From IMG/VR virus record IMGVR_UViG_3300022699_000217, positions 1 to 64,000 of that record: a DNA stretch of 64,000 nucleotides; one strand, written 5' to 3'. This DNA is from a virus. A program made the translations under genes and the position numbers. Below the pieces are notes generated by a model that had not been told where the DNA came from, searched no databases, and saw only the letters and a program-made list of their open reading frames with translations. The stretch's first letter is position 1, and every line of letters begins with the position of its first letter. Positions 6,227 through 50,181 of the stretch are shown here, piece by piece.

Positions 6227-6748
6227 ATGATCACAGCAGCAAGACTGAAAGCGTATAACCCTCGGATGGGGAGCAGGATGCGGTCGTACACCAGCGCTCG
6301 GGGCAACCGCTATGTCGCGGGCGACGGCGTGGTTCCCAGCCCGTGGCGGCTTGTGAAAAACCAGGCGGAAATCGCGGAGATCACGGCGATGCCGCAGTTC
6401 GAGATCCGGCAGTTTGAGGATCAGGCGCATTTCGAGGCCCATATCATCAACGAGATGGAAGCGGACGTCCGGCTGGGCCGACCAGCGGTCCGCGCATCGG
6501 TGCACCGGGACGAGGCCGTTATCCCCATGAGCCGGGAGGCGGACGAGGCGCGCAAGGCGGACGCGAAGGAAGAGGCCGTGCGGCGCGCGTCCCAGCTTCT
6601 GCGCCCGACCCCGGTCGGCGATCCGGTCGTGGCGCCCGAGCCCGAGCCGGAGCCGGAGCCCGTGTCGATGAAGGCCGAGGAGCCGGAGCCAGCGCCCGAG
6701 CCGAAGAAGAGCAAGCGGTCCCCGGCACGGCGGAAGAAGAAAGCTTGA
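6227..6748 (+). CDS. small head-module protein with basic tail, 173 aa
   Basis: The N-terminal region contains NRYVAGDGVVPSPWRLVKNQ and MPQFEIRQF, a pattern seen in small phage proteins between capsid and connector genes. A proline-glutamate run (about residues 138-160, EPEPEPEP) follows, and then a strongly basic end, KSKRSPARRKKKA, which could touch DNA or RNA. No enzyme motif is visible. A role inside the head or at the portal is possible but not shown. Confidence 0.6.
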   Translation: MITAARLKAYNPRMGSRMRSYTSARGNRYVAGDGVVPSPWRLVKNQAEIAEITAMPQFEIRQFEDQAHFEAHIINEMEADVRLGRPAVRASVHRDEAVIPMSREADEARKADAKEEAVRRASQLLRPTPVGDPVVAPEPEPEPEPVSMKAEEPEPAPEPKKSKRSPARRKKKA

Positions 6749-6800
6749 CCGAAACCCGCAGGGCAACCTGCCAGATGTAGATGCAGCAAGGAACAGGACC

Positions 6801-7091: not shown

Positions 7092-9959
7092 ATGACTCTC
7101 CACAAAAATATCCCGCTGGGCGGGATGCACAAACCGTACAATTGGGAATATGCCAACGCGGCGGCGCGCACCGGCGCGGCTGGCCTGACCGCTGAGGACG
7201 TGGGCAAGATCGCCCGGCAGTTGGACGACAACTCGCTGTGGATGCTCATCAACCACTCGCCCGTCACGTGGGTGCAGCAGGGCGCCGGGTCCGGGACGCC
7301 TATCCTCGCCGATGGGTCGGTGCCGTTTGTCGGCGACCAGTCGATGGGTGGGAACAAGCTCATCGATCTGGATGCGGCGGCGGCGGCGGGCGACGCCGTG
7401 CGGTACGACGAGTTCAGCACCCTAGAGGGCGACGTCGCGAACAACTATGCGGGCCTTTTGGCGCTCATGGCGCGCATCGATGATGTTGAAGATTATTCCG
7501 CTGCAAACGCCCGAAGCGGCTTCAAGAACTACACGGCCGATTCGACCGTATCGTTCAACGAGGCGACGCGGCTGTTTGAGATCACCGTGAACCTGGCAGC
7601 GACGTTCGAGGTGTGGACCGAGAATACCAAGTTCGACATCGTCTCCGACAGCGTTACCATCTCGAACGTGACGGGTGAACACTGGATTTATTTCGATCTT
7701 GTGGGAAATCTGATTGAATCCGTTAACCCGACCGCGGCGACGAAAGAGGAGATCATCAAGAACCTCGGGTTGGTCACGATCATCTACTGGAACGCCACGA
7801 CCGGGCACCGCATCTGGCGGGGCGACGAGCGGCACGGGACGGCCATGGCGGGTGCGACCCACTACCATTTCCACGAAACGCTCGGGGCGTTTTTGGAGTC
7901 GGGCGGTGCGCCGACGTCCATCTCGGCGGATCAAGACGGTAGCTTGGACGCCCATGCGCAAGTGGGGATGGCGAGCGCAGTGTTACACGACGAGGATCTG
8001 GAACACACCCTCGCCGCCAAACTGTCGACGGCAGACTGGCACACCTTGTACAAGACGGGCGGAACCGGGGTATGGGCGCGCGTGGACCCGAAGGTGGCCT
8101 TTCCGGTCGCCAACGCGGGCACCGGCCGATTGGCGTGGAACGAGTTTACGGGGGCGACCTGGCAGCTAACGGAGGCGTCGAATAACAGCTTTGTGCTGAC
8201 CCATATCTTCGCCACGAACGACCCGGATGACCCGTACATGGCCGTCGTTGGTGAGGCGGAATACGGCAACATCAACGACGCTCGCACGGGCGCGGCCAAC
8301 GAGCTTGCGGAAATCAACACCGAGGGGTTGCCGACGCCCGAGTCCGCGTGGATCGCAACCATCATCTATCAAACTTCCAACTCCTACGGGAACACGGTCA
8401 AGGCGCGCATTCGCACGGTGGATGGGGGCGACTACATCGACTGGCGCACCGAGCGGCTAACGGGAGCGGCATCATCGACGAACGACCACGGGTCGCTTTC
8501 CGGACTCGACGACGCCGACCACCCAGTGGAGGCATTGTATCTGCCGGTTGGCACCGCGGGCGTGACCGATATGGTCTCCGGGCGCGACTGGTGGAACTAC
8601 TTCACCGGTTCCTGCGCCATCTCGGGTTTCGCCTTGACCGACAACGGCGACGGCACGGTTGACATCGCCGCTGGCGAAGCGCTCTTGCGGACATCGGATT
8701 CGGACACGGCAGATATGCAGGTGGTTCAGATCCCTGCGACGGCAGGGCTGGCGCTCACCGACAACTCGGTCAACTTCATCAACGTGCGGTGGAATGCGGG
8801 GTCGCCAGAGGTGCGCGTGACCACGACGTACCCCTTGTTCCTGTCGGAAGCGGTCGTGCATCTCACAGTCCGCCACGGGACGACGATCCACCACATCGAC
8901 GTATCCAGGGCCGCCGTCAACTCGATCACCAAGAACGGGATGAAGGACGTCGGCGTCTACGGGTACGAGCACGTCAAGGGCGGAACGGTCATCACGCACA
9001 CCGGCACGCGGAACATGTATGTGACGCCCGGCATCTTTTACCTAAGCACCGCGCGACTGCTTCATCCGGCATTTGATACGTCCGGAGCGGACTCGTTCAC
9101 CGCCGTTTATGAGGATGGCCTCGGAGGCTGGACGCGGGTGGCCGGGCAGACCCAAATCAGCAATACCCAATATGATGACGGGTCAGGCGCGTTGGCTACG
9201 CTTGGCACGAACAAGTATGGCATTTACTGGGTGTACCTGTGCCAGAACACGCCTCCGGCGCTAAACGTGCTATACGGGCGCGACGAGTACGATACGCTCG
9301 CCGAAGCCCAAGCGGTCGGGGAGTATGCTGATGCCACGCGTCCCCCGGAGATGCGGGACATTTCCACCGCGGAGCTGATTGGAAAGATCATCGTGCTGAA
9401 GAACGCGGCGTCATTTGCGGACATCCAGCAGCCGTGGGACGACTTTTTGGCGAGCACGACACCTTCGCCGGGCGGTTCCGGAACGGGCTTCGAAGCCGTG
9501 ACGATTACTCAATCGGTCAGCAGCGGTACCGAGGGCGGCGGCAGCACCGGGGCAGCGTGGAACAAGCGCCCGCTGAACACGCTGACCAATCCCAAAAGCT
9601 ACTCGTGGGTGACGTTTGACGACGCCAACGACCGCTTCGACCTCGCGACGGGCTTCTACCACATCTCCATCAAGGCGCAGGTGTTCGCGGCGGGCAAGCA
9701 CCAACTTCGGTTGCGCGCGGACCCGGCGGGGGCGCCGAGCACGCAGCTCACCGGCAGCTCCCAGCACTGTCCGTATTGGAACGAGGAGGCCAGCCAGGAG
9801 GGCACGCTGGAGGGCGTGTTCGAGTTGCTGGTGACCGAGACGTTCCAGGTGGAGCATTTCATCGAGCAAACGGTGGGTACCTACGGGCTGGGCAAGGCGG
9901 TATCCTCGGGCGAGGACGAGACGTACTGCACCATCCAAATCGCCAAGCTTGGGGCGTAA
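7092..9959 (+). CDS. large structural / fibre-like protein, 955 aa
   Basis: A long beta-rich protein. The N-terminus carries LTAEDVGKIARQLDDNSLWM and then ITWVQ-like residues (about residues 33-62), a motif that recurs as LTPADIGVIARQEDTDTLYV in the 33225-34622 product. Later parts contain repeated short beta segments and fibre-like sequences (GGNKLIDLDAAAAAGDAVRY, HGSLSGLDDADHPVEALYL), the latter typical of collar or tail-fibre repeats. It most likely forms a fibre, whisker or decoration on the virion. The ATG at 7092 follows GGAGG. Confidence 0.65.
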   Translation: MTLHKNIPLGGMHKPYNWEYANAAARTGAAGLTAEDVGKIARQLDDNSLWMLINHSPVTWVQQGAGSGTPILADGSVPFVGDQSMGGNKLIDLDAAAAAGDAVRYDEFSTLEGDVANNYAGLLALMARIDDVEDYSAANARSGFKNYTADSTVSFNEATRLFEITVNLAATFEVWTENTKFDIVSDSVTISNVTGEHWIYFDLVGNLIESVNPTAATKEEIIKNLGLVTIIYWNATTGHRIWRGDERHGTAMAGATHYHFHETLGAFLESGGAPTSISADQDGSLDAHAQVGMASAVLHDEDLEHTLAAKLSTADWHTLYKTGGTGVWARVDPKVAFPVANAGTGRLAWNEFTGATWQLTEASNNSFVLTHIFATNDPDDPYMAVVGEAEYGNINDARTGAANELAEINTEGLPTPESAWIATIIYQTSNSYGNTVKARIRTVDGGDYIDWRTERLTGAASSTNDHGSLSGLDDADHPVEALYLPVGTAGVTDMVSGRDWWNYFTGSCAISGFALTDNGDGTVDIAAGEALLRTSDSDTADMQVVQIPATAGLALTDNSVNFINVRWNAGSPEVRVTTTYPLFLSEAVVHLTVRHGTTIHHIDVSRAAVNSITKNGMKDVGVYGYEHVKGGTVITHTGTRNMYVTPGIFYLSTARLLHPAFDTSGADSFTAVYEDGLGGWTRVAGQTQISNTQYDDGSGALATLGTNKYGIYWVYLCQNTPPALNVLYGRDEYDTLAEAQAVGEYADATRPPEMRDISTAELIGKIIVLKNAASFADIQQPWDDFLASTTPSPGGSGTGFEAVTITQSVSSGTEGGGSTGAAWNKRPLNTLTNPKSYSWVTFDDANDRFDLATGFYHISIKAQVFAAGKHQLRLRADPAGAPSTQLTGSSQHCPYWNEEASQEGTLEGVFELLVTETFQVEHFIEQTVGTYGLGKAVSSGEDETYCTIQIAKLGA

Positions 9960-21114: not shown

Positions 21115-23382
21115 ATGGCATCGACGGAACTGCTTTCGAGCAAAGTCGTCATTCTTGAGGAAGAGCCGCAAATCCCCAGCGTCGCCGCACTGCCGAGCGC
21201 GGTGTTGCTTTGCCTGGGCATTTGTGAGCGCGGACCGATCTCGGATGCGCGGCTCGTGACCTCTGAGGACGAGTATGAAAAAATCTTCGGCGGCTTCACG
21301 GCCGACGCAGAATGCGCCATCGCGGCGCGCGGGTTCTTCAGTAACGGCGGCGTGTTCATGTGGGTCGTCCGCACGGTGCACTACACCGACCTGAGCGACC
21401 CGGCCTTGCACACCGCACTGAAGGGTCAGGTAAACCTACAGAACAGCGGCAGCGCGGCTACGGCTGCGGCTGTGACCGGCACAGCAACGCAGCCCTTCAA
21501 CATGCAATTCGAGGCCACGAAGACACTCGACATCACGACCGATCTGGGCGGACCGACCACCGTGACGATGACCGGCACGGCGGCGACGATTACGTCCGGC
21601 TCCGCGGAGACTTACAACCTTACCGGCGGTGAGACGCTCACGTTCAAGGTCGACCGTGGCCCGGTGCAAACGGTAACGTTCGGCGTTGGCGACATCGCTG
21701 TTCCTGGTGCTGCCACGGCTGCCGAAGTTGCCCTTCGGCTAAACCTGGACGGTGTTGGCATCGTGGCTGAAGATGATGCCGGCTCGGTCAAGATCACTTC
21801 CGACACGGAAGGAACCGGCTCGTACTTGGAAGTCACGGGCGGCACCGCAAACGTCGCTTTTTCGTTTGCGACGGCGGAAGTGGCTGGTGCGGGCAACGTA
21901 GTGGACATGTCGGCTGTTACGGGTGCGGAGATCGAAGCCGCCGTTGAGGCGCTCATCGCCGATGTAGATGTGGTTGTCAACGGCACCGGGACGCTGACGT
22001 TCCAGACGGCGCTGACCGGCTCGACGAAGACCATCCAGGTTGAAGCGTCGTCCGGCTTGGATACGCTGCTCGGTTTGGACAACGTTCTACACAGCGGGAC
22101 GGACGCCAGCCCCGTGAACACGCTCCAAGTGGATGGCAAGTGGTTCGGTGCCTACACCGACGACATCAAGATCGGCATCGAGAATGCCCCGAGCGGCGAG
22201 GCCACCGAGTTCACGCTCAAGGTGTACAAGGCGGGCGTGCTCCGCGAGGTGTTCCCGAACGTAACGATGGATGACACGCTCACGAACTACGTGGAGACCG
22301 TGGTCAACGATGAGAATTTCGGCTCGAAGTACATCGCCGTGACCGACCTCGACGTGGGTCCGGCAGCGGCGACCGAGCGTCCCGTTAACGTGCTGAGCGC
22401 CTTCATGGCGGGCGGTGACGACGGGTTGGTCGGCATCGCCGATGCGGACTACCTCGGAAACGTGGCTGGCCCGACCGGGCTGTACTGCTTTGACCGCGTC
22501 ACTTCTGGACGTATCCTCATCGTGCCGGGCGTCGCCACTGCGGCGGTGCATATCGGGATGCTGGATTACGCCGAGGTGCACCGGAACGGCTCGATGTTCT
22601 GCGTTCTGGATAGCCCCGAGGGGTACACGAAGGCGCAGATCGTCACGTACATGACCACCAACCTCTTGGAATACAGCGAGTACGGCGCCATCTACTGGCC
22701 GCGCATCAAGGTTGCGAACCCGAGCACGACCGTGTTCGGCGATTCCAACACGATCACCGTGGCACCCAGTGGGTGGATTGCCGGGCTGTACGCCCGCAAC
22801 GACCAGCAGCTCGGTGGGGTATACGAATCCCCCGCCGGAGTGGGCATCGGTCATGCCTACGGCGTGATTCGCGGGATGCTCGGCGTCGAGGACGACCCCG
22901 GCGGTGGCACGTACCATGAGGTGTTGGATGAGGCGACGCGCGACTACGTCTACCCGAAGCGCATCAACCCGATCACCAAGCTGGAAGGGCAGCCCTGGCA
23001 CATCGACGGTGGCCGGACGCTGAAATCCACCGGCAACTTCCCGAACGTCGGCGAGCGACGCGGCGTGATCTTCATCGAGCAAAGCTTGAAGGCCGCGCTG
23101 GTCGTGTTCAAGCACCGCTTCAACAACCGAGAGAACCGCAAACGCGCGAACCGCATGATCACCGCGTTCCTGATTCGCGAGATGAACAAGGGCGCGTTCC
23201 GCTCGACCGTTCCAAGCGAGGCGTTCTTCGTCGACACCAGCGACCAATTGAACCCGCTCGTCAACGTGTTCGCGGGCATCATGACCATCCGCATCGGTTT
23301 GGCGACAAACAAGCCCAACGAGTTTATCGTGGTGCTCGTCACTCAGGACACGCGGGCGCTGCAAGAAGAGCTTGCGGCATAA
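21115..23382 (+). CDS. contractile tail sheath protein with inserted domain, 755 aa
   Basis: A tail sheath by its N-terminus (VVILEEEPQIPSVAALPSAV to GICERGP), the central GVATAAVHIGMLDYAEVHRN and the conserved C-terminal domain (PWHIDGGRTLKS, NFPNVGERRGVIFIEQSLKA, EFIVVLVTQD). An inserted region of about 230 residues (105-335) separates the N-terminal part from the sheath core. It contains a repeated module with YNLTGGETLTFKVD to DIAVPGAATAAEVALRLN, also present in the gpI-like protein at 36971. Insertions usually lie on the outer surface of the sheath. It is encoded directly before the tube gene, as in other contractile tails. Confidence 0.93.
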   Translation: MASTELLSSKVVILEEEPQIPSVAALPSAVLLCLGICERGPISDARLVTSEDEYEKIFGGFTADAECAIAARGFFSNGGVFMWVVRTVHYTDLSDPALHTALKGQVNLQNSGSAATAAAVTGTATQPFNMQFEATKTLDITTDLGGPTTVTMTGTAATITSGSAETYNLTGGETLTFKVDRGPVQTVTFGVGDIAVPGAATAAEVALRLNLDGVGIVAEDDAGSVKITSDTEGTGSYLEVTGGTANVAFSFATAEVAGAGNVVDMSAVTGAEIEAAVEALIADVDVVVNGTGTLTFQTALTGSTKTIQVEASSGLDTLLGLDNVLHSGTDASPVNTLQVDGKWFGAYTDDIKIGIENAPSGEATEFTLKVYKAGVLREVFPNVTMDDTLTNYVETVVNDENFGSKYIAVTDLDVGPAAATERPVNVLSAFMAGGDDGLVGIADADYLGNVAGPTGLYCFDRVTSGRILIVPGVATAAVHIGMLDYAEVHRNGSMFCVLDSPEGYTKAQIVTYMTTNLLEYSEYGAIYWPRIKVANPSTTVFGDSNTITVAPSGWIAGLYARNDQQLGGVYESPAGVGIGHAYGVIRGMLGVEDDPGGGTYHEVLDEATRDYVYPKRINPITKLEGQPWHIDGGRTLKSTGNFPNVGERRGVIFIEQSLKAALVVFKHRFNNRENRKRANRMITAFLIREMNKGAFRSTVPSEAFFVDTSDQLNPLVNVFAGIMTIRIGLATNKPNEFIVVLVTQDTRALQEELAA

Positions 23383-42532: not shown

Positions 42533-42955
42533 ATGAACACGTTAAAACGAAAAGCAGGTGCGGCGCCGCAGATTGCGGTCACATCTTTTCCGCCCGGGGA
42601 AACCGTTGTCGAGGTGCCGTTGTATCCCCCGTTCGTAGACGGTGCGGATGTGGTCATCCTTGCGACCGCGCAGGGCGCGTTCGGCGTGCACGTCAGCGAC
42701 GTGTCGGAGAGCGGGTTCAAGCTGCACCTTGCCGAGCCCCAGAAGGATGCGGTACGGGTCGCCTGGCAGGTCGCGGTTGCCAAGCCCCAGCTCCAGCCTC
42801 GCACCGGTGATGGCCTCCCCGTGCGGACGAAGCCGTCGAAGCCCCACCCGAAGCCCAGCGACATGGTAAGCGCAGCGGACTTGGCGAAGAAAATGTCGGA
42901 TGCACGTAAGACCGCACAGGCCGTCCACGCGATTGCCGGATTCCGTGGAGTGTGA
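42533..42955 (+). CDS. small fibre-adjacent protein, 140 aa
   Basis: Not recognised as a named family. The first 85 residues are beta-rich (APQIAVTSFPPGETVVEVPL, GADVVILATAQGAFGVHVSD), followed by a proline/lysine linker and a short amphipathic helix (DLAKKMSDARKTAQAVHAIA). Location after the fibre gene would suit a fibre chaperone or tip protein. The stop overlaps the alternative start of the next gene. Confidence 0.5.
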   Translation: MNTLKRKAGAAPQIAVTSFPPGETVVEVPLYPPFVDGADVVILATAQGAFGVHVSDVSESGFKLHLAEPQKDAVRVAWQVAVAKPQLQPRTGDGLPVRTKPSKPHPKPSDMVSAADLAKKMSDARKTAQAVHAIAGFRGV

Positions 42956-42957
42956 CG

Positions 42958-43467
42958 GTGCAGTATAAGGGCAGGCTGATGGCGATACGGCGGTCATACA
43001 AGGAGAGCTCGAGCAGTGACAGCGCCTGTGCGAATACCGAGTGCGCGCAGATGTTCGGGGTTATCGCGGAGGCGCTGGATGATCTGTCCGTTGAGGTGAA
43101 AGCATCCCGGTCAGACATAAGCGCGGTGAACGAGCGCATCGCGGCACAGGAGGCGAAGACGCATAACGCGTGGCACTCTATCTCCCGCGTGGAGGAGCGG
43201 CTAAACAATCTGCCGCGCGAGATCGCCGATTCCATCACGCGGCATGAGCAGTCGTGTCCGGGGCGAGACTATGCACGGCACAAGCTCACGGCCAGCTATC
43301 CAACCCCATCGGTGAACAAGCGGCAGGAGCGCCCGTCGGGAAAGCCGGGCACGCTGCACGATGATTCCGGGTTGTCCATCCCGAAATGGATCGCTTATCT
43401 GGGCGCGATTCTCGGCGCGGCGGGGGCGGCGGCGGGATACTTGCTGCATTCCGTCGGTGTGTTTTAA
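42958..43467 (+). CDS. XhlA-like coiled-coil membrane protein, 169 aa
   Basis: A GTG start at 42958 is chosen because GGAG lies seven bases upstream; GTG 42952 and ATG 42979 are in the same frame. The middle (about residues 35-95) is coiled coil (ALDDLSVEVKASRSDISAVN, AWHSISRVEERLNNLPREIA). Residues 143-165 form one membrane segment (WIAYLGAILGAAGAAAGYLL). This layout, short helix plus C-terminal membrane anchor, resembles XhlA-type lysis or membrane-associated phage proteins, but it is longer and carries extra charged sequence. It closes the virion gene block. Confidence 0.55.
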   Translation: MQYKGRLMAIRRSYKESSSSDSACANTECAQMFGVIAEALDDLSVEVKASRSDISAVNERIAAQEAKTHNAWHSISRVEERLNNLPREIADSITRHEQSCPGRDYARHKLTASYPTPSVNKRQERPSGKPGTLHDDSGLSIPKWIAYLGAILGAAGAAAGYLLHSVGVF

Positions 43468-43781
43468 CGCACTCACACACACATAAGCGCACACCGTTTA
43501 CAGTGTAGTTTTTATAACCACACCAGCTCTCTTGTGCTCCCATATAATGATAGTCAATATGTTTACTATATAAGGGCGCTCCCTTTGGCAGTGTTTTTTG
43601 GAGAGCCCCGGACGATTTTTGCCCGAAAAAAACTAAAAAATAACTGCCTTACACGCTGTTTTTAGTGCACCCCAGCACAAAAAACCGAACAAAAAACGCA
43701 ATGATTCCAGCAAATTGACGAATGATTGATGATTTTACTTGCGCTACCCATCCCGAAGAGCTAAAAAGTAAGTGTTCCGAG

Positions 43782-43794
43782 GCTCTTTGAAAAC
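43782..43794 (+). promoter_or_regulatory. boxA-like antitermination motif 1
   Basis: GGCTCTTTGAAAAC matches the ribosomal-RNA boxA pattern (TGCTCTTTAACA in E. coli, TGTTCTTTGAAAACT in Bacillus, as remembered). BoxA in nascent RNA is bound by NusB-S10. Followed about 25 bases later by GCCAAGCAAAGTAACGGATC. Confidence 0.5.
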
Positions 43795-43818
43795 AAAAAC
43801 AACCGCAGGGCAGAGCAA

Positions 43819-44011
43819 GCCAAGCAAAGTAACGGATCTCCTGGGTATTAAAGGGAAAGCCAACGCACTATTTACCCAGCCCGCACCAAGCAAAGCCCAA
43901 CCTGCCAGCGCCGGGCACAACCACCCCATAGTTGTTTTTGTGATCTTTGAAAATTTAACCAAGTAACAACGGATCAACGCGCTAGCTTTGGCGGGTGAAA
44001 CCAAAGTAACG
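43819..44011 (+). repeat. four imperfect copies of an ACCAAGCAAAGTAACGGATC element
   Basis: Copies read GCCAAGCAAAGTAACGGATC (43819), ACCAAGCAAAG (43885), AACCAAGTAACAACGGATC (43957) and ACCAAAGTAACG (44000). Spacing is irregular, so this is not a simple tandem array. Two of the copies each follow a boxA-like motif. They could be protein- or RNA-binding sites. Confidence 0.5.
43942..43960 (+). promoter_or_regulatory. boxA-like antitermination motif 2
   Basis: TGATCTTTGAAAATTTAACC is very close to the E. coli rrn boxA stretch as remembered (TGCTCTTTAACAATTTATC). It is the second copy in the same leader and is followed directly by AAGTAACAACGGATC, as the first copy is followed by a similar element. 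Confidence 0.55.
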
Positions 44012-44042
44012 CGCACAAAAAACAGTTTATTTTTTCAACCTC

Positions 44043-44068
44043 GGGGCGAAACACGTTTGTTTCGCCTC
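44043..44068 (+). other. leader stem-loop before the first early-type gene
   Basis: GGGGCGAAAC (44043-44052) pairs with GTTTCGCCTC (44059-44068) with one G-U pair; loop ACGTTT. It is followed by AACCCAAAA (44086-44094) and then ACGGAG before the ATG at 44114. First member of a set of hairpin leaders in this module. Confidence 0.7.
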
Positions 44069-44113
44069 GCATTGAGCAAATAAACAACCCAAAACAAACA
44101 AACGGAGAAAACA

Positions 44114-44293
44114 ATGCGCGGAGTAAAAGTAGGTGACTGGGTCGAATTCAAGTATGACATCGAGCAATCCGCTAAAGTCGAGAAGATTGCAAACGGTCGT
44201 ATCTATGTTCGTGCCTATGAAGGCGACTACGTTAACAACCAAACTGGCACAGTGATCTCGCTGCGTTTCGGCGAGTTCGAGGTCGTCGATTAG
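44114..44293 (+). CDS. small protein with an SH3/KOW-like look, 59 aa
   Basis: Starts ATGCGCGGAGTA after AACGGAGAAAACA and ends at the TAG at 44291. The product, MRGVKVGDWVEFKYDIEQSA followed by KVEKIANGRIYVRAYEGDYV, is beta-rich with VGDWVEF near the start, as in small barrel (SH3-like) domains that bind nucleic acid or protein. The stop codon lies inside a 56-bp exact repeat. No family is assigned with confidence. Confidence 0.7.
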   Translation: MRGVKVGDWVEFKYDIEQSAKVEKIANGRIYVRAYEGDYVNNQTGTVISLRFGEFEVVD

Positions 44294-44346
44294 TTATGAT
44301 CGCATCGAGCGCAAGAAACGATCTTGCGCTTCATTGTGCTCATAAC
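44291..44346 (+). repeat. 56-bp exact direct repeat with nested hairpins, copy 1
   Basis: Identical over 56 bases to 44568-44623; both copies begin with the TAG stop codon of the preceding gene. It folds as an outer 7-bp stem (GTTATGA 44293-44299 with TCATAAC 44340-44346) enclosing an inner 8-bp stem (AGCGCAAG 44308-44315 with CTTGCGCT 44323-44330). It is followed by AACCCAAA and a ribosome-binding site. Confidence 0.92.
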
Positions 44347-44378
44347 AAAAGAACCCAAAGCAAACGGAGAAAAAAACA

Positions 44379-44570
44379 ATGGAAAAAGCTATGAAAGAAA
44401 TAATCGACCTGCTCGCTGATGTACAAGACCTGGACGCACAAACAATCGGGGAATATATCCAAGATATTTTCATGGATAATGAAATAACACGTATCGAAGT
44501 TGACAAGTTAGATAGCTCCACGTTCGCACTGTTCGATGGGGAAAAGCGCATCCACGTGACGGTCAAGTAG
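44379..44570 (+). CDS. small acidic protein, 63 aa
   Basis: MEKAMKEIIDLLADVQDLDA, then a middle with QTIGEYIQDIFMDNEITRIE and a beta-strand end (STFALFDGEKRIHVTVK). It is strongly acidic with a helical first half. The ATG follows ACGGAGAAAAAACA, the same leader pattern as the gene at 44114. Small acidic early phage proteins often inhibit host enzymes, but nothing specific supports that here. Confidence 0.65.
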   Translation: MEKAMKEIIDLLADVQDLDAQTIGEYIQDIFMDNEITRIEVDKLDSSTFALFDGEKRIHVTVK

Positions 44571-44623
44571 TTATGATCGCATCGAGCGCAAGAAACGATC
44601 TTGCGCTTCATTGTGCTCATAAC
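44568..44623 (+). repeat. 56-bp exact direct repeat with nested hairpins, copy 2
   Basis: Second identical copy, again starting with the stop codon of the preceding gene. Outer stem 44570-44576 with 44617-44623; inner stem 44585-44592 with 44600-44607. It is followed by AACCCAAA (44630-44637) and a 12-base palindrome, GCCCTTAAGGGC (44640-44651), before AAGGAG. Confidence 0.92.
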
Positions 44624-44664
44624 GCACACAACCCAAACCGCCCTTAAGGGCAAGGAGAATCATC

Positions 44665-45237
44665 ATGGCAACCGCGAAAAACACCAAAAAAGCCGCTTCC
44701 AAAAACACCGCCAAGTCCGCCTCCGAGACCGCTGCCAAAGTCGCATCGGAAGCCACTCGCGTCGAGGTGACGAAGCCCGCCAACGAGAAGCCCATCGCCG
44801 AGTGCCCCTACGCTGAGAAGCTGGTCGAATCGGGCGCTACTCTGGCCGGACCGTTCAAGGGCGGCATCCAGCCCATCGAGCGCATCGCCGAGGCGGAGAC
44901 CACCGTCGGCACGATCCAGATTGTCGTCAAGCTGTACGCCGCCGAGTGGGACGGTTCCATCATCGAGTACAAAGACCGCAAGGACGCCATCGCTGCCATG
45001 CGTGAGAACCGCAGGCGGGCGCGGGCTGCTCGGGGCGGCGGCAAGGACCGCAGGCTCCACAGGCAACTAGAGCGCATCGTAGATAAGCTCTCCACGCTCC
45101 AGGGCGCGGACGAGATTGACGGAGATGCGGAGTACTCGGCCGAGTGGATCGCCGCAAAGACAGCGCTCAATGCCATCATGGGTCAAATCGAGGCGCGTGT
45201 TCCTAGCGTTATCCAGGACAAGGGACCGAGCAAGTAG
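44665..45237 (+). CDS. protein with H1-like Ala/Lys N-terminus, 190 aa
   Basis: The first 35 residues are histone-H1-like (TAKNTKKAASKNTAKSASET). The middle contains a beta-rich region (AGPFKGGIQPIERIAEAETT, TIQIVVKLYAAEWDGSIIEY), then a strongly basic stretch (ENRRRARAARGGGKDRRLHR) and a helical end. Basic N- and middle parts suggest nucleic-acid binding. No enzyme motif was seen. It could be an early nucleoid- or transcription-associated protein (inference). Confidence 0.65.
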   Translation: MATAKNTKKAASKNTAKSASETAAKVASEATRVEVTKPANEKPIAECPYAEKLVESGATLAGPFKGGIQPIERIAEAETTVGTIQIVVKLYAAEWDGSIIEYKDRKDAIAAMRENRRRARAARGGGKDRRLHRQLERIVDKLSTLQGADEIDGDAEYSAEWIAAKTALNAIMGQIEARVPSVIQDKGPSK

Positions 45238-45244
45238 TAAGGAG

Positions 45245-45300
45245 GGCCGCGCTTGCGGCCTCACCGGGGTCGGCGATTTTCGAGTCGCCCGCTCCGGTGA
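45245..45300 (+). other. double hairpin leader before the 123-aa gene
   Basis: A perfect 6-bp stem (GGCCGC/GCGGCC, 45245-45260, loop GCTT) is followed by a two-tier hairpin: outer TCACCGG (45261-45267) with CCGGTGA (45294-45300), inner GGCGA (45272-45276) with TCGCC (45285-45289). It precedes AACCAAA and AAGGAGG. Same architecture as the 56-bp repeats, different sequence. Confidence 0.75.
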
Positions 45301-45331
45301 GGGCACAAGAAACCAAACCAAGGAGGACGCC

Positions 45332-45703
45332 ATGACAGAGTTTACCGGGTTCACGCACAACCAACCCCGCGGGTTCGTCCGAGAAGAGAACACGGTCGCC
45401 ACGCTGAAAGGCGGGCGTCGCGTAAAAGTAAAGATCTATCACGCCCTATTCGGCACCGAGCGCAAGATCTGCCGCACTCAGGTGGAGGCCAATGACTGGC
45501 TCGACTCGAGGCGCGTCTCCTGGCGAGATCGGGACGGCAAGCTTAACGCCCGCAAGGGCGTCCTCGCTGCGTGCAATGTCGCGAGCAACCGCCTCGCCGC
45601 AGCGATGACCGAGGGCAGCCACGCTCTAACGGCAGAGCAGATCAAAAAAATTCAAGCTGCCATGGAAGCGCTATCCGATGCAGCCGACGCCGTCCGCCAG
45701 TAG
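45332..45703 (+). CDS. small basic unknown protein, 123 aa
   Basis: ATG 45332 follows CCAAGGAGGACGCC, an excellent ribosome-binding site; an in-frame open stretch upstream lies inside the previous gene and is discarded. The protein begins TEFTGFTHNQPRGFVREENT, has a basic middle (LKGGRRVKVKIYHALFGTER) and a helical C-terminal half. A DNA-binding or host-interaction role is possible but not shown. Confidence 0.65.
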   Translation: MTEFTGFTHNQPRGFVREENTVATLKGGRRVKVKIYHALFGTERKICRTQVEANDWLDSRRVSWRDRDGKLNARKGVLAACNVASNRLAAAMTEGSHALTAEQIKKIQAAMEALSDAADAVRQ

Positions 45704-45708
45704 GGTTG

Positions 45709-45754
45709 GGGGCTTGTGCCCCGCTGAGCTACCGATGACTCGGTGGTTGAGCGG
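45709..45754 (+). other. mutually exclusive hairpins before the 70-aa gene
   Basis: GGGGC (45709-45713) pairs with GCCCC (45718-45722). The CC at 45721-45722 is shared with a competing outer stem CCGCT (45721-45725) with AGCGG (45750-45754), enclosing ACCGA/TCGGT (45731-45744). It precedes AACCCAAAA (45761-45769) and GGAG. The overlap could allow two alternative folds. Confidence 0.6.
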
Positions 45755-45779
45755 AACACAAACCCAAAAGGAGAATCCC

Positions 45780-45992
45780 ATGGAAAAAACAAGACTACAA
45801 AAGAAGCTAGATCGTCGTCGGCAGGGGCTTGGATCCCGCGCTTGTGGCATCGGAGAGATTCGGCCGGACGGCACCGCCGACCTCGCAACGCGGCTCGGGG
45901 TGTGCGTGTCATGCGGCGAGCCGCTGCTCGGCGATGCTGGCGACAACTGCGAGGACGTTGCCGCCCACGCTGGCGAGTGGGGGATTGTATGA
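45780..45992 (+). CDS. small cysteine-containing protein, 70 aa
   Basis: ATG 45780 follows AAAAGGAGAATCCC. A DksA/TraR-like zinc-binding element is suggested by ACGIGEIRPDG and then VCVSCGEPLLGDAGDNC (C..C and a late C), but the coiled-coil part of DksA is short or absent here. The N-terminus is basic (KTRLQKKLDRRRQGLG). Function uncertain. Confidence 0.6.
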   Translation: MEKTRLQKKLDRRRQGLGSRACGIGEIRPDGTADLATRLGVCVSCGEPLLGDAGDNCEDVAAHAGEWGIV

Positions 45993-46102
45993 CGGAGTTT
46001 GAGTATGTCGTGGTTCACTTAGATCGAGACGAGTTTTTGCCAACCCAAACCGCCCTGGAGATACTCGAGGGCTTCGAGGAGAACCCCTATGACGAGCGAT
46101 AA
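45989..46102 (+). CDS. very small acidic protein, 37 aa
   Basis: MTEFEYVVVHLDRDEFLPTQ then TALEILEGFEENPYDER. The start ATG overlaps the upstream stop (ATGA), and its own end overlaps the next start by 14 bases, a typical pattern of coupled phage genes. Function unknown. Confidence 0.55.
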   Translation: MTEFEYVVVHLDRDEFLPTQTALEILEGFEENPYDER

Positions 46103-47018
46103 CATCCTATCCGCACTAACAGCTCCCAAGGAGGGCACCCATCTTGGCGACCTATGCGGCTGGTCCTTGCACGGTACGTTCGACCGGGAGACAGTCGAGC
46201 AGGCCACCGAGCAGCTCGGCCTCGAAAACGACTTTCAGTTGCCGCGCCTGACAGCGGTCAACGCCTATCGCCGCGCAGCCGTAGAGGCGTGTAAGGACGC
46301 CGCGCGCCAAGACCAGCGTGGATGGTCCGCGGAGCTTGTGCAGAACGACGAGGACTACATCGTCCACGAGCTGGTAAGGAAGCAAATAAAGAGCGGCGGT
46401 AACTCGGCGTTGACAGACAAGACAACGGAATTCGCGTCAGAGACGAGAATCCGCTTTGACAAGATCGGATACCGCGCTGGGCGGTCCCCGGAAACGCTCG
46501 TGGAGCTCGAGCACCCAAGCCACCCGATGGCAGCTCGTGCCGCTCAGTTGTTCGTCGAGTATCTCACGAAGTTCCGCGCGAACGACATTCGCTCCGGCTT
46601 CCAGCGGGCGTTTGAGACGTGGGACGGAATGCGCGTCCTCGAGCACGGTGGCTTATGGGTCATCCCATCGCCCCACGCGGAAAAGGTTCGCGCGTGGAAG
46701 GAGTGGCTGCATCGGCTTGGATGCAGTAGCATTATCATTCCGGTCTTCGACACCGAGGAGACCATCGCGTCCATGCGGGCGATGGCCGAGGATAACTTGG
46801 AGGGCCAGCTTGCGCGCATCTTGGGCGAGCTGGAGTCCTTCAGCACGAAGGAGAACACGCGAGTCAGCACGCTGGAATCGCGCCTCGAATCCTTTGATAC
46901 GCTCCGCTCGAAAACGGAGATGTATGAAAGGTTACTCGGGATGAAGATGGAAGCGCTCAAAACCCGCCTGAGCACGGCCGCTTCGTCCCTAAAGTCGTCA
47001 CTCGCCAGTCTTGGTTAG
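46089..47018 (+). CDS. DUF6744-like protein, 309 aa
   Basis: The region LEHPSHPMAARAAQLFVEYL followed by FRANDIRSGFQRAFETWDGM, VLEHGGLWVIPSPHAEKVRA and IIPVFDTEETIASMRAMAED resembles the DUF6744 pattern seen in phages, plasmids and mobile islands, often near AAA+ genes (family match from memory). A coiled coil occupies the last 70 residues (RVSTLESRLESFDTLRSKTE). Immediately followed by MoxR-type and VWA genes, it is likely part of the same functional cassette (inference). Confidence 0.6.
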   Translation: MTSDNILSALTAPKEGTHLGDLCGWSLHGTFDRETVEQATEQLGLENDFQLPRLTAVNAYRRAAVEACKDAARQDQRGWSAELVQNDEDYIVHELVRKQIKSGGNSALTDKTTEFASETRIRFDKIGYRAGRSPETLVELEHPSHPMAARAAQLFVEYLTKFRANDIRSGFQRAFETWDGMRVLEHGGLWVIPSPHAEKVRAWKEWLHRLGCSSIIIPVFDTEETIASMRAMAEDNLEGQLARILGELESFSTKENTRVSTLESRLESFDTLRSKTEMYERLLGMKMEALKTRLSTAASSLKSSLASLG

Positions 47019-47031
47019 TGTCGACCCTTCC

Positions 47032-47096
47032 CCCGCGTCCGTTCGCGGGCGCTCCTGAGTGGCTCACGCGTGGGCCGTTCAGGTGTTCTCGCGAAC
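47032..47096 (+). other. tandem hairpins before the MoxR gene
   Basis: CCCGCG/CGCGGG (47032-47049, loop TCCGTT) is followed by a two-tier hairpin: CCTGA (47054-47058) with TCAGG (47079-47083), inner GGCTCA/TGGGCC. A small GTTC/GAAC stem (47085-47096) comes next, then AAACCCACAA and TAGGAG. Same leader style as upstream genes. Confidence 0.7.
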
Positions 47097-47124
47097 AAAC
47101 AAACCCACAACATAGGAGAACGGC

Positions 47125-48333
47125 ATGAACAAGTCACAACTGAAGGCCCTGGATGATTTTATAAACAGAGATGAGATCACCGCGTTGGAAAACGCGCGGA
47201 AGCGCTTGGCTGCTGGGCGCGCCTCTTTGGAAGCCCGGTTCTTGGAGCGAGAGAAGGAGATCCGAGGGCTGCTCGTATCGGCCTTGTCCGGCACCCACCC
47301 GCTGCTCCTTGGCCCCCCGGGGACCGGCAAGTCGGCGCTCGTCAACGCCTTCGCCGAGCTGCTCGGCGCTGGCACGTTCTCGCTCCTGCTAACCAAGTAC
47401 ACCACCCCCGAGGAGGTGTTCGGCCCTGTGGACATCCAGGCGATGAAGAATGGGAGCTATCGTCGTCGCGTTAACGGGCGTGCCTGGGATAGCGAGGTCG
47501 TGTTCATGGACGAGATCTTCAAGGCGTCCAGCTCGATTCTCAACTCGCTGCTCACGCTCATGCAGGAGCGTGTCGCCGACAACGATGGCCGCGTGTCCGT
47601 GCCGCTTGAGGTGCTGGTCGGGGCGTCCAACGAGTACCCGGCGGACAGCTCGCTCGATGCGTTGTTCGACCGCTTCTCGTGCAAGTATTGGGTCGACTAC
47701 ATCGGGCAGGCCCAAAACATGCGGTCGCTCCTGCTTGCCGGCGGCGCGGGGAGCACGACCGTGACGTTGGAGCCCAACGATCTTGCCGCGCTCCGGGATG
47801 CCGTCAACGCCGTGCCGTTCGGGCCGCGTGAGGCCGAGCTGCTCCTGGGCGTGAAAGCTGCCGTCGAGGACGCCGGGTTCTATCCGAGTGATCGAACCTG
47901 GGTCAAATCGATTGCGCTGCTACGTGCAAGCGCCGTGCTCGAGGGGCGCGACACCATCGCAACCAACGACTTCCGCATGCTCGCGGATGTGCTTTGGAAT
48001 AAGCACGATGATCGCCCCAAGCTGATGGAGGTCATCGGGAACGCGGCCGACCCCTACGGTAGCCGCGCGGAAGCCATTATCGACGGCATCAAGCTTGCTC
48101 TTCGCGAGATGCCGGACTTTCAAATCGTCGAGTCTGGGCAGATGACCAAGGTCAAAGCTCAGGAGGTGCTCGTCGGCGTCAACAAGAAGCTGATGAAGGA
48201 AGTGGATAAGCTGACCCGGCTCGAGAATGAAGCCGCAGATCATCCGGACGTGCAAGCGCTCCGCGAGAAGGCGAAAGCCGCGATGAAAACATTCGACGAG
48301 TTCAACGACAAGCTGCTTTGGTTCAGAGGGTAG
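47125..48333 (+). CDS. MoxR/RavA-type AAA+ ATPase, 402 aa
   Basis: Walker A GPPGTGKS (63-70), KYTTPEEVFGP (91-101, diagnostic of the RavA/MoxR group), Walker B VVFMDE (125-130), sensor-1 GASNE (166-170) and FDRF with the arginine finger region (181-184). The C-terminal part contains a lid domain and a helical tail (MKEVDKLTRLENEAADHPDV). MoxR ATPases act as chaperones with VWA partners; the next gene encodes one. It is expected to act in the cytoplasm as a hexamer. Its presence in a phage suggests remodelling of host or virion factors. Confidence 0.88.
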   Translation: MNKSQLKALDDFINRDEITALENARKRLAAGRASLEARFLEREKEIRGLLVSALSGTHPLLLGPPGTGKSALVNAFAELLGAGTFSLLLTKYTTPEEVFGPVDIQAMKNGSYRRRVNGRAWDSEVVFMDEIFKASSSILNSLLTLMQERVADNDGRVSVPLEVLVGASNEYPADSSLDALFDRFSCKYWVDYIGQAQNMRSLLLAGGAGSTTVTLEPNDLAALRDAVNAVPFGPREAELLLGVKAAVEDAGFYPSDRTWVKSIALLRASAVLEGRDTIATNDFRMLADVLWNKHDDRPKLMEVIGNAADPYGSRAEAIIDGIKLALREMPDFQIVESGQMTKVKAQEVLVGVNKKLMKEVDKLTRLENEAADHPDVQALREKAKAAMKTFDEFNDKLLWFRG

Positions 48334-49809: not shown

Positions 49810-49841
49810 CCCTTGGCGGCTAGGCTCACGGTCGCCAAGGG
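49810..49841 (+). other. 9-bp perfect hairpin after the VWA gene
   Basis: CCCTTGGCG (49810-49818) pairs perfectly with CGCCAAGGG (49833-49841), loop of 14 bases. The bases after it (CTTGCCTTTTAG) give only a weak T-tract, so terminator strength is uncertain. A smaller TAGCGC/GCGCACTA-like palindrome follows near 49851-49865. Confidence 0.7.
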
Positions 49842-49902
49842 CTTGCCTTTTAGCGCTAAGCGCACTAAACAAAGGATAGTGACTGTTCATGAGGAGAACC
49901 CA

Positions 49903-50181
49903 ATGGGCACAGCAACAAACAAGCGCCGCGCCAACGCGCGGATAAACCACCTTTACGCGAACATCGATGTGATTCTCGCAAAAAAGGGTTGGCGGATGAT
50001 CGATCTTGCTCGAGAGATGGGCGTATCAGCCCCGACACTCCGTGGGATTCTCGTCCGTGGGCGGCCTCGTAACGGCACGCTCCTGCGCCTGGCGAAAGCG
50101 CTGGGCGTCGACATCGAAGATCTCGTGATGGCGTCATCCCCCGAGGAGTACGGCGCCGCCATGATCCCCCGTATCCACTAA
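49903..50181 (+). CDS. XRE-type helix-turn-helix regulator, 92 aa
   Basis: The core NIDVILAKKGWRMIDLAREM followed by GVSAPTLRGILVRGRPRNGT and LLRLAKALGVDIEDLV fits a Cro/CI-type (XRE) HTH domain of about 55 residues. The N-terminus is basic. ATG 49903 follows GAGGAGAACCCA. It is the only clear transcription-regulator gene in the window. Likely operator targets include the hairpin-rich leaders nearby or the 43468-44113 region, but this is a guess. Confidence 0.75.
   Translation: MGTATNKRRANARINHLYANIDVILAKKGWRMIDLAREMGVSAPTLRGILVRGRPRNGTLLRLAKALGVDIEDLVMASSPEEYGAAMIPRIH

Follow-up and report, generated by a model that had tools for sequence, protein, structure and literature searches.

Two ribosomal-type boxA sites joined by a predicted closing helix in the leader of the early genes of a contractile-tailed phage

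The leader that separates the late genes of this phage from its early/replication half (positions 43468-44113) contains two boxA sites of the ribosomal (rrn) type, and the stretch between them is closed at its ends by a predicted 10-bp helix. The elements follow the order of an rRNA operon, namely boxA, leader arm, RNA, trailer arm and second boxA, all within 180 bases. We think it somewhat more probable than a coin toss that this region constitutes a lineage-specific leader, dependent on the host Nus factors, which would mimic rrn operons both in antitermination and in RNA folding.

The window, i.e. the whole stretch of DNA that was analysed, is 64,000 bases long and corresponds to bases 1-64000 of a virus record of 94,753 bases. 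The two ends of this record share 99 identical bases, indicating that it is probably a complete circle. Family searches identified genes for the sheath (21115-23382), the tape measure and the baseplate, which mark it as a phage whose tail is contractile. The last late gene ends at 43467, directly before the leader, and the early/replication half on the other side encodes, among others, a MoxR-type ATPase, a vWA protein, a RecE-like exonuclease, Erf, DnaB and ThyX. It extends as far as a gene near 88 kb that is portal-like, with a weak match in Pfam and portal matches in phage records. The early genes downstream of the leader that could be assigned to families lie on the + strand, like both boxA sites; the family libraries were run on + strand ORFs only and on part of the early ORFs, and the mechanical gene list also has frames on the - strand. 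A 122-aa ORF at 49813-50181 of the window matches phage repressor/regulator families (best E 8e-8).

The leader starts with an AT-rich spacer (43468-43780, + strand) between the last late gene and boxA1, which has G+C hairpins near 43574-43625 and in which no sigma-70 promoter was recognised. By direct reading of the + strand, boxA1 (GGCTCTTTGAAAAC) occupies positions 43781-43794 and boxA2 (TGATCTTTGAAAATTTAACC) positions 43941-43960; a preliminary description of this DNA had reported the two motifs at 43782 and 43942, and both are present, each one base further left. The AAGTAAC..CGGATC-type element that it described after each motif was also found, as AAAGTAACGGATC at 43826-43838, 31 nt past boxA1, and as AAGTAACAACGGATC at 43961-43975 (+ strand), directly 3' of boxA2, where its GATCA can pair with the TGATC of boxA2. 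A search of both strands of all 94,753 bases located TCTTTGAAA at 43784 and 43944 and nowhere else, the two starts being 160 bases apart, and AAAGTAACG solely at 43826 and at 44003. AAGTAAC and CCAAGYAA form short direct repeats within the leader. When the 646-base leader was shuffled 20,000 times with its dinucleotides preserved, at least one TCTTTGAAAA arose in 38 shuffles and two copies in none. A search of the window allowing one mismatch returned 3 matches against 1.82 expected, so that the weight rests on two exact adjacent copies and not on single copies. The distance to the first start codon is 333 nt, all untranslated, from the start of boxA1 and 153 nt from the end of boxA2.

In order to compare these sites with ribosomal boxA we used as a yardstick 16S loci from genomes of two phyla. 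These loci were reached via two genomes, one of Clostridia and the other filed under Deltaproteobacteria. A 16S match was obtained in 19 of 81 and in 6 of 9 genomes, the second set including a genome (G038) already matched earlier. Of 37 loci taken, several of which derive from one genome, 34 were scored; L097 and L107 were left out because the 16S start was not found, and L112 because it had too little upstream sequence. A boxA within 6 mismatches of a 21-base seed was present in 30 of the 34 usable upstream regions and missing from the other 4, yielding 18 distinct 16S-leader sequences that lie between 51 and 311 bases ahead of 16S. The seed and the weight matrix were set after viewing the 16S leaders, though they were not derived from the phage. 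The matrix built on the 18 sequences ranked boxA2 first (28.5 bits) and boxA1 second (12.4 bits) in the whole record, the next site scoring 10.9. The training sequences themselves scored 26.3-36.3, a range in which boxA2 falls and below which boxA1 remains. An 18-nt part of boxA2, TGATCTTTGAAAATTTAA, is identical in the 16S-leader boxA of loci L129-L131. For its part, boxA1 has the exact 10-base core and diverges downstream of it. As judged from sequence, boxA2 stands far above background and boxA1 does so only through its exact 10-base core, which makes it the weaker case. The description of the motifs as ribosomal in type was borne out against these 16S leaders from genomes, the sites standing here at the head of early/replication genes. 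An exact 19-mer of boxA2, TGATCTTTGAAAATTTAAC, was found in 4 stretches of genome contigs, none of them with rRNA detected by Rfam within 8 kb, which makes it less likely that the site was simply copied from a known rrn.

The end of the boxA1 core (43793) and the start of the boxA2 motif (43941) are separated by 147 bases. The 5' or leader arm CAAAAACAAC (43794-43803, + strand) is predicted to form 10 Watson-Crick pairs with the 3' or trailer arm GTTGTTTTTG (43931-43940, + strand). This helix follows the boxA1 core with 0 nt between them and stops 3 nt short of the boxA2 core, directly before the boxA2 motif. An equally good closing helix was obtained in none of 1000 dinucleotide shuffles, and a looser one (at least 8 bp, at both ends) in 8 of 1000. 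The enclosed RNA (43804-43930, + strand, 127 nt) has a predicted CUGGGUA/UACCCAG stem, holds the AAAGTAACGGATC element and contains CCAAGCAAAG twice, at 43820 and 43886, a sequence present nowhere else in the record. Its fold is no better than that of shuffles (z -0.41), and the whole leader folds mildly better than shuffles (z -1.9). Rfam assigned no family at gathering score to the enclosed RNA or to the window; matches below that score were rejected as chance, the best being RAGATH-13 with 22 bits against the 80 required (E 0.14). rRNA operons are described as carrying their cis elements at the operon head and again before 23S, together with a leader-trailer helix (PMC10250234). The same source presents boxA as necessary and sufficient for the rrn complex and proposes that tethering by boxA aids the formation of the leader-trailer helix. 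The phage leader resembles rrn leaders and spacers in the sequence and strand of its boxA, its location near the head of a transcription unit, the presence of two copies and the helix between them. It differs in heading early genes rather than rRNA, in enclosing 127 nt rather than 16S and in the weakness of boxA1 past the core. Neither the helix joining the two sites nor the phage tmRNA parallels presented below had been mentioned in the preliminary description.

We then consider what lies between boxA2 and the early genes. A hairpin of the form GCGC..CUUUGG/CCAAAG..GCGC is predicted at 43979-44014 and holds the second AAAGTAACG (44003). It is followed by a long hairpin before the first early gene (44025-44085), which has no U-tract and for which folding of 44020-44095 gave z -6.3. 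The first early ORF (44114-44293) encodes an acidic protein of 59 aa (pI 5.0) without PHROG or Pfam family. After it comes a 62-nt intergenic hairpin (44285-44346, with the strong hairpin itself at 44292-44350), again devoid of a U-tract, a second copy of which, 97% identical and 277 bases further on, follows the second early gene (44562-44623). The third early gene (44665-45237) encodes a protein of 190 aa with a pI of 9.3, a lysine/alanine-rich start and an arginine-rich middle with the stretch RENRRRARAARGGGKDRRLHRQ; it is a candidate RNA-binding protein. All these features lie on the + strand. PHROG returned no match for the first three early genes, and Pfam none for the first and the third. 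The preliminary description suggested that the boxA pair could let polymerase read through many hairpins downstream. Within 43300-48000 we counted 5 terminator-like sites on both strands (2 on the + strand) against 6.8 expected in shuffles, i.e. no more than by chance, and the strong hairpins lack U-tracts. On these two results the downstream hairpins were rejected as intrinsic terminators, which they do not resemble, and the idea that the pair serves to read through them found no support. Those between the first early genes are more likely elements of mRNA processing or stability than terminators. Folding also indicated that boxA2 can pair with a downstream GGATCA. Such pairing might hide boxA2, which could mean regulated access or be an argument against function.

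We propose that boxA2 and, more weakly, boxA1 would, once transcribed, recruit NusB-S10, NusA and NusG of the host to RNA polymerase. Thus modified, the enzyme would resist Rho over the 333-nt untranslated leader and the long early operon, and antitermination from this leader would need no phage N protein. The helix would form like the 16S leader-trailer helix, its 5' arm being tethered by boxA, and would probably have a role in processing or folding the RNA that it encloses. The Nus complex is reported to act against Rho in rrn operons (PMC4807359; PMC5725501). An untranslated leader of this length, and the long operon behind it, would lie open to Rho, and we regard protection of both from Rho as a likelier purpose of the sites than hairpin readthrough. 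Domains of NusB and NusG were looked for in the record and not found, in keeping with factors supplied by the host.

Other phage contigs carry a related layout. Viral contigs were scanned for pairs of TCTTTGAAAA with a spacing of 145-175 bases, which gave 50 stretches with 53 pairs and 42 distinct intervals. The notion that these 50 loci form one family was rejected, as both sites lie inside open frames of at least 100 codons in 40 of the 53 pairs. Closing helices of at least 8 bp at both ends were found in 4 of the 42 distinct intervals (L133, L171, L174 and L179), the L171 pair lying in an open frame of 573 codons. ARAGORN, run over the 50 loci, called a tmRNA gene in exactly three, L133, L174 and L179, and Rfam run on five loci agrees. 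In these three contigs boxA, arm, RNA, arm, boxA and tmRNA succeed one another (L133, 2010-2603; L174, 1508-2040; L179, 2815-3345), the tmRNA starting 1-34 nt after the second boxA core. Their closing helices measure 10, 8 and 26 bp, respectively, and equally good ones arose in 1, 13 and 0 of 1000 shuffles; the L174 helix is weak by itself, being matched by 13 of its own 1000 shuffles. The corresponding fold z values are -1.6, -0.95 and -6.5, so that only L179 folds far better than shuffles. By eye, the enclosed RNA of L174 resembles a tRNA with an insert, for which ARAGORN made no call. The leader described here shares with these tmRNA leaders the succession of boxA, helix arm, RNA, helix arm and boxA, and differs from them in what follows: a tmRNA gene there, hairpins and protein genes in this phage. 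The three contigs share at most three 14-base words pairwise, and this near-absence of common DNA words suggests that capture of rrn-type boxA occurred more than once. Among named phage records, that of a 735-kb uncultured phage (LR756501.1, L186) has a related GTTCTTTGAAGAT at about 801-815, just before a stretch that resembles the L133 tmRNA region by blastn and in which ARAGORN called no tmRNA gene. Inspection by eye of two further named records, L187 and L188, revealed none. The linkage of boxA to tmRNA is not general in phages, being seen in 1 of these 3 named records.

To our knowledge, the known phage antitermination systems use phage proteins (N, Q) or a self-acting RNA (put). The put element of phage HK022 is a two-hairpin RNA. 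It is reported to act by itself (PMC9378689), and the likeness would be that of an RNA from a phage leader which may work on RNA polymerase with no help from a phage protein; the difference is that put acts alone, whereas the recognisable part in this phage is a Nus-factor site. Lambda nut with N likewise has a boxA ahead of early phage genes, in their leader. Here the boxA is longer and of the rrn type, and there is no recognised N family, only an arginine-rich candidate. That candidate, where the preliminary description had seen no evident N-like gene, is the basis of an alternative in which boxA would supply just the host-factor part of a nut-type site and the third early protein (44665-45237) would bind a leader hairpin, as lambda N binds boxB. 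Its basic protein is encoded just downstream of the leader, the predicted hairpin at 43979-44014 lies downstream of boxA2, and lambda-like N systems are reported in non-lambdoid phages as well (the mEp phages; PMC11893012). However, this protein belongs to no PHROG or Pfam family, its arginine-rich stretch is internal, and the extended match to rrn boxA exceeds the shorter boxA that the preliminary description ascribed to lambda nut. We find an N-like system rather unlikely here.

The tmRNA contigs bear on another possibility, that of a small stable-RNA unit in which the product would be the enclosed RNA of 127 nt, an sRNA of the phage, and boxA would serve its transcription and folding, as may be the case for phage tmRNA genes, while the early mRNA merely follows. 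The matching layout before tmRNA in L133, L174 and L179 speaks for such a unit, as does the presence of CCAAGCAAAG twice in the enclosed RNA and nowhere else in the record, but this RNA reached no Rfam family at gathering score, folds no better than shuffles (z -0.41) and has no homologue that we found, and we give the proposal little credence. Repression is a further documented use of boxA: it is adopted outside rrn in E. coli suhB (PMC5725501), where, as in lambda nutL-N, Nus loading would loop the RNA. A translational or Rho-linked repressor of that kind would act here on the first small genes, and boxA2 does lie in the leader to small early genes. We nevertheless hold this to be improbable, as 153 nt, with strong hairpins among them, separate the end of boxA2 from the first start codon, and a signal for processivity is more sensible to expect ahead of early genes than a repressor. 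The rrn-mimicking, Nus-dependent leader that we favour also has a counterpart in the boxA found before CRISPR arrays (Stringer et al. 2020, as cited in PMC7862264): in both cases boxA would have been recruited to a long untranslated transcript that is not rRNA (PMC7862264), the difference being that this phage has an early operon, with paired boxA and a closing helix.

Conservation of the two motifs in related phages had been set as a check by the preliminary description, and its outcome speaks against a conserved role. A profile of the sheath detected 53 related loci in viral contigs; applied to genome contigs, it led to no confirmed relative. TCTTTGAMAA was searched for in 30 of the sheath-related records, many of them fragments, and its 10 matches, in 5 records, all lie in open frames of at least 124 codons. 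The ATPase that marks the matching place was found in only 7 records, whose sheaths are 49-59% identical to that of this phage. In all 7, the leader at the matching place, upstream of the ATPase, lacks boxA. These leaders are short, several have promoter-like sequences by eye, and two of them (G004 and G005) look nearly identical. The closest sheath relatives, L004-L006 (79, 69 and 63% identical), are fragments in which the marker ATPase was not found. No match to the leader DNA went below E 0.08 in the 40 of the 53 sheath-related loci that were searched, and blastn of 42900-46500 against phage records gave no match. Hits obtained by blastn with the boxA stretches (in 2 and 12 records, best E 0.8) were read as chance. 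Searches of viral contigs with the third early gene, the ATPase and DnaB confirmed no relatives, and the combination of boxA with the AAGTAAC..CGGATC element had 0 matches there. As far as visible from sequence, the module is lineage-specific; no relative is known to carry it, so that neither covariation nor conservation supports it. That the motifs are not seen in relatives, with AAGTAAC and CCAAGYAA as short direct repeats in the leader, could point to chance or to a DNA-level element such as replication-initiator repeat sites in an AT-rich spacer, but the absence of any double copy in 20,000 shuffles, the 18-nt identity to a real rrn boxA and a helix fitted between the sites argue against both, and we see only a slim prospect for this explanation.

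Taken together with the tmRNA contigs, the leader raises a wider proposition, which we put forward tentatively and with more doubt than belief: phages might carry miniature rrn-like modules that hijack the host ribosomal antitermination complex without a phage protein, for tmRNA and, here, for a whole early operon and a processed small RNA. If so, a sequence would by itself be enough to capture the rrn antitermination complex for mRNA, and such modules would offer a compact natural test of boxA and the leader-trailer helix apart from ribosome assembly. The titles and the starts of abstracts of the literature matches listed contain no report of ribosomal-type boxA pairs in phage leaders, which does not prove that there is none.

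Several other loci with boxA-like sites came up during the scans. In L162 (4423-4620), intergenic tandem boxA-like sites (TTGATCTTTGAAAATTAAATAG) precede a small phage gene, the closing helix being absent. In L183 (about 6430-6770) and L184 (about 8710-9040), which belong to one 81.9-kb contig, an element of about 330 bases is present in two copies, each with TGATCTTTGAAAATTGAACA; from its look we guess that it may be an IS200/605-type remnant, and this rrn-like boxA in two copies of one repeated element was set aside as something else. L185 was likewise set aside, as by eye it is likely a stray rrn leader. Elsewhere in the phage record itself, at 78883-82855 (L002, 14883-18852), four consecutive genes have strong G+C at third positions. 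Two of them have no Pfam family, one encodes a radical SAM protein and one a TET-associated glycosyltransferase-like protein, and this cluster is perhaps devoted to DNA hypermodification.
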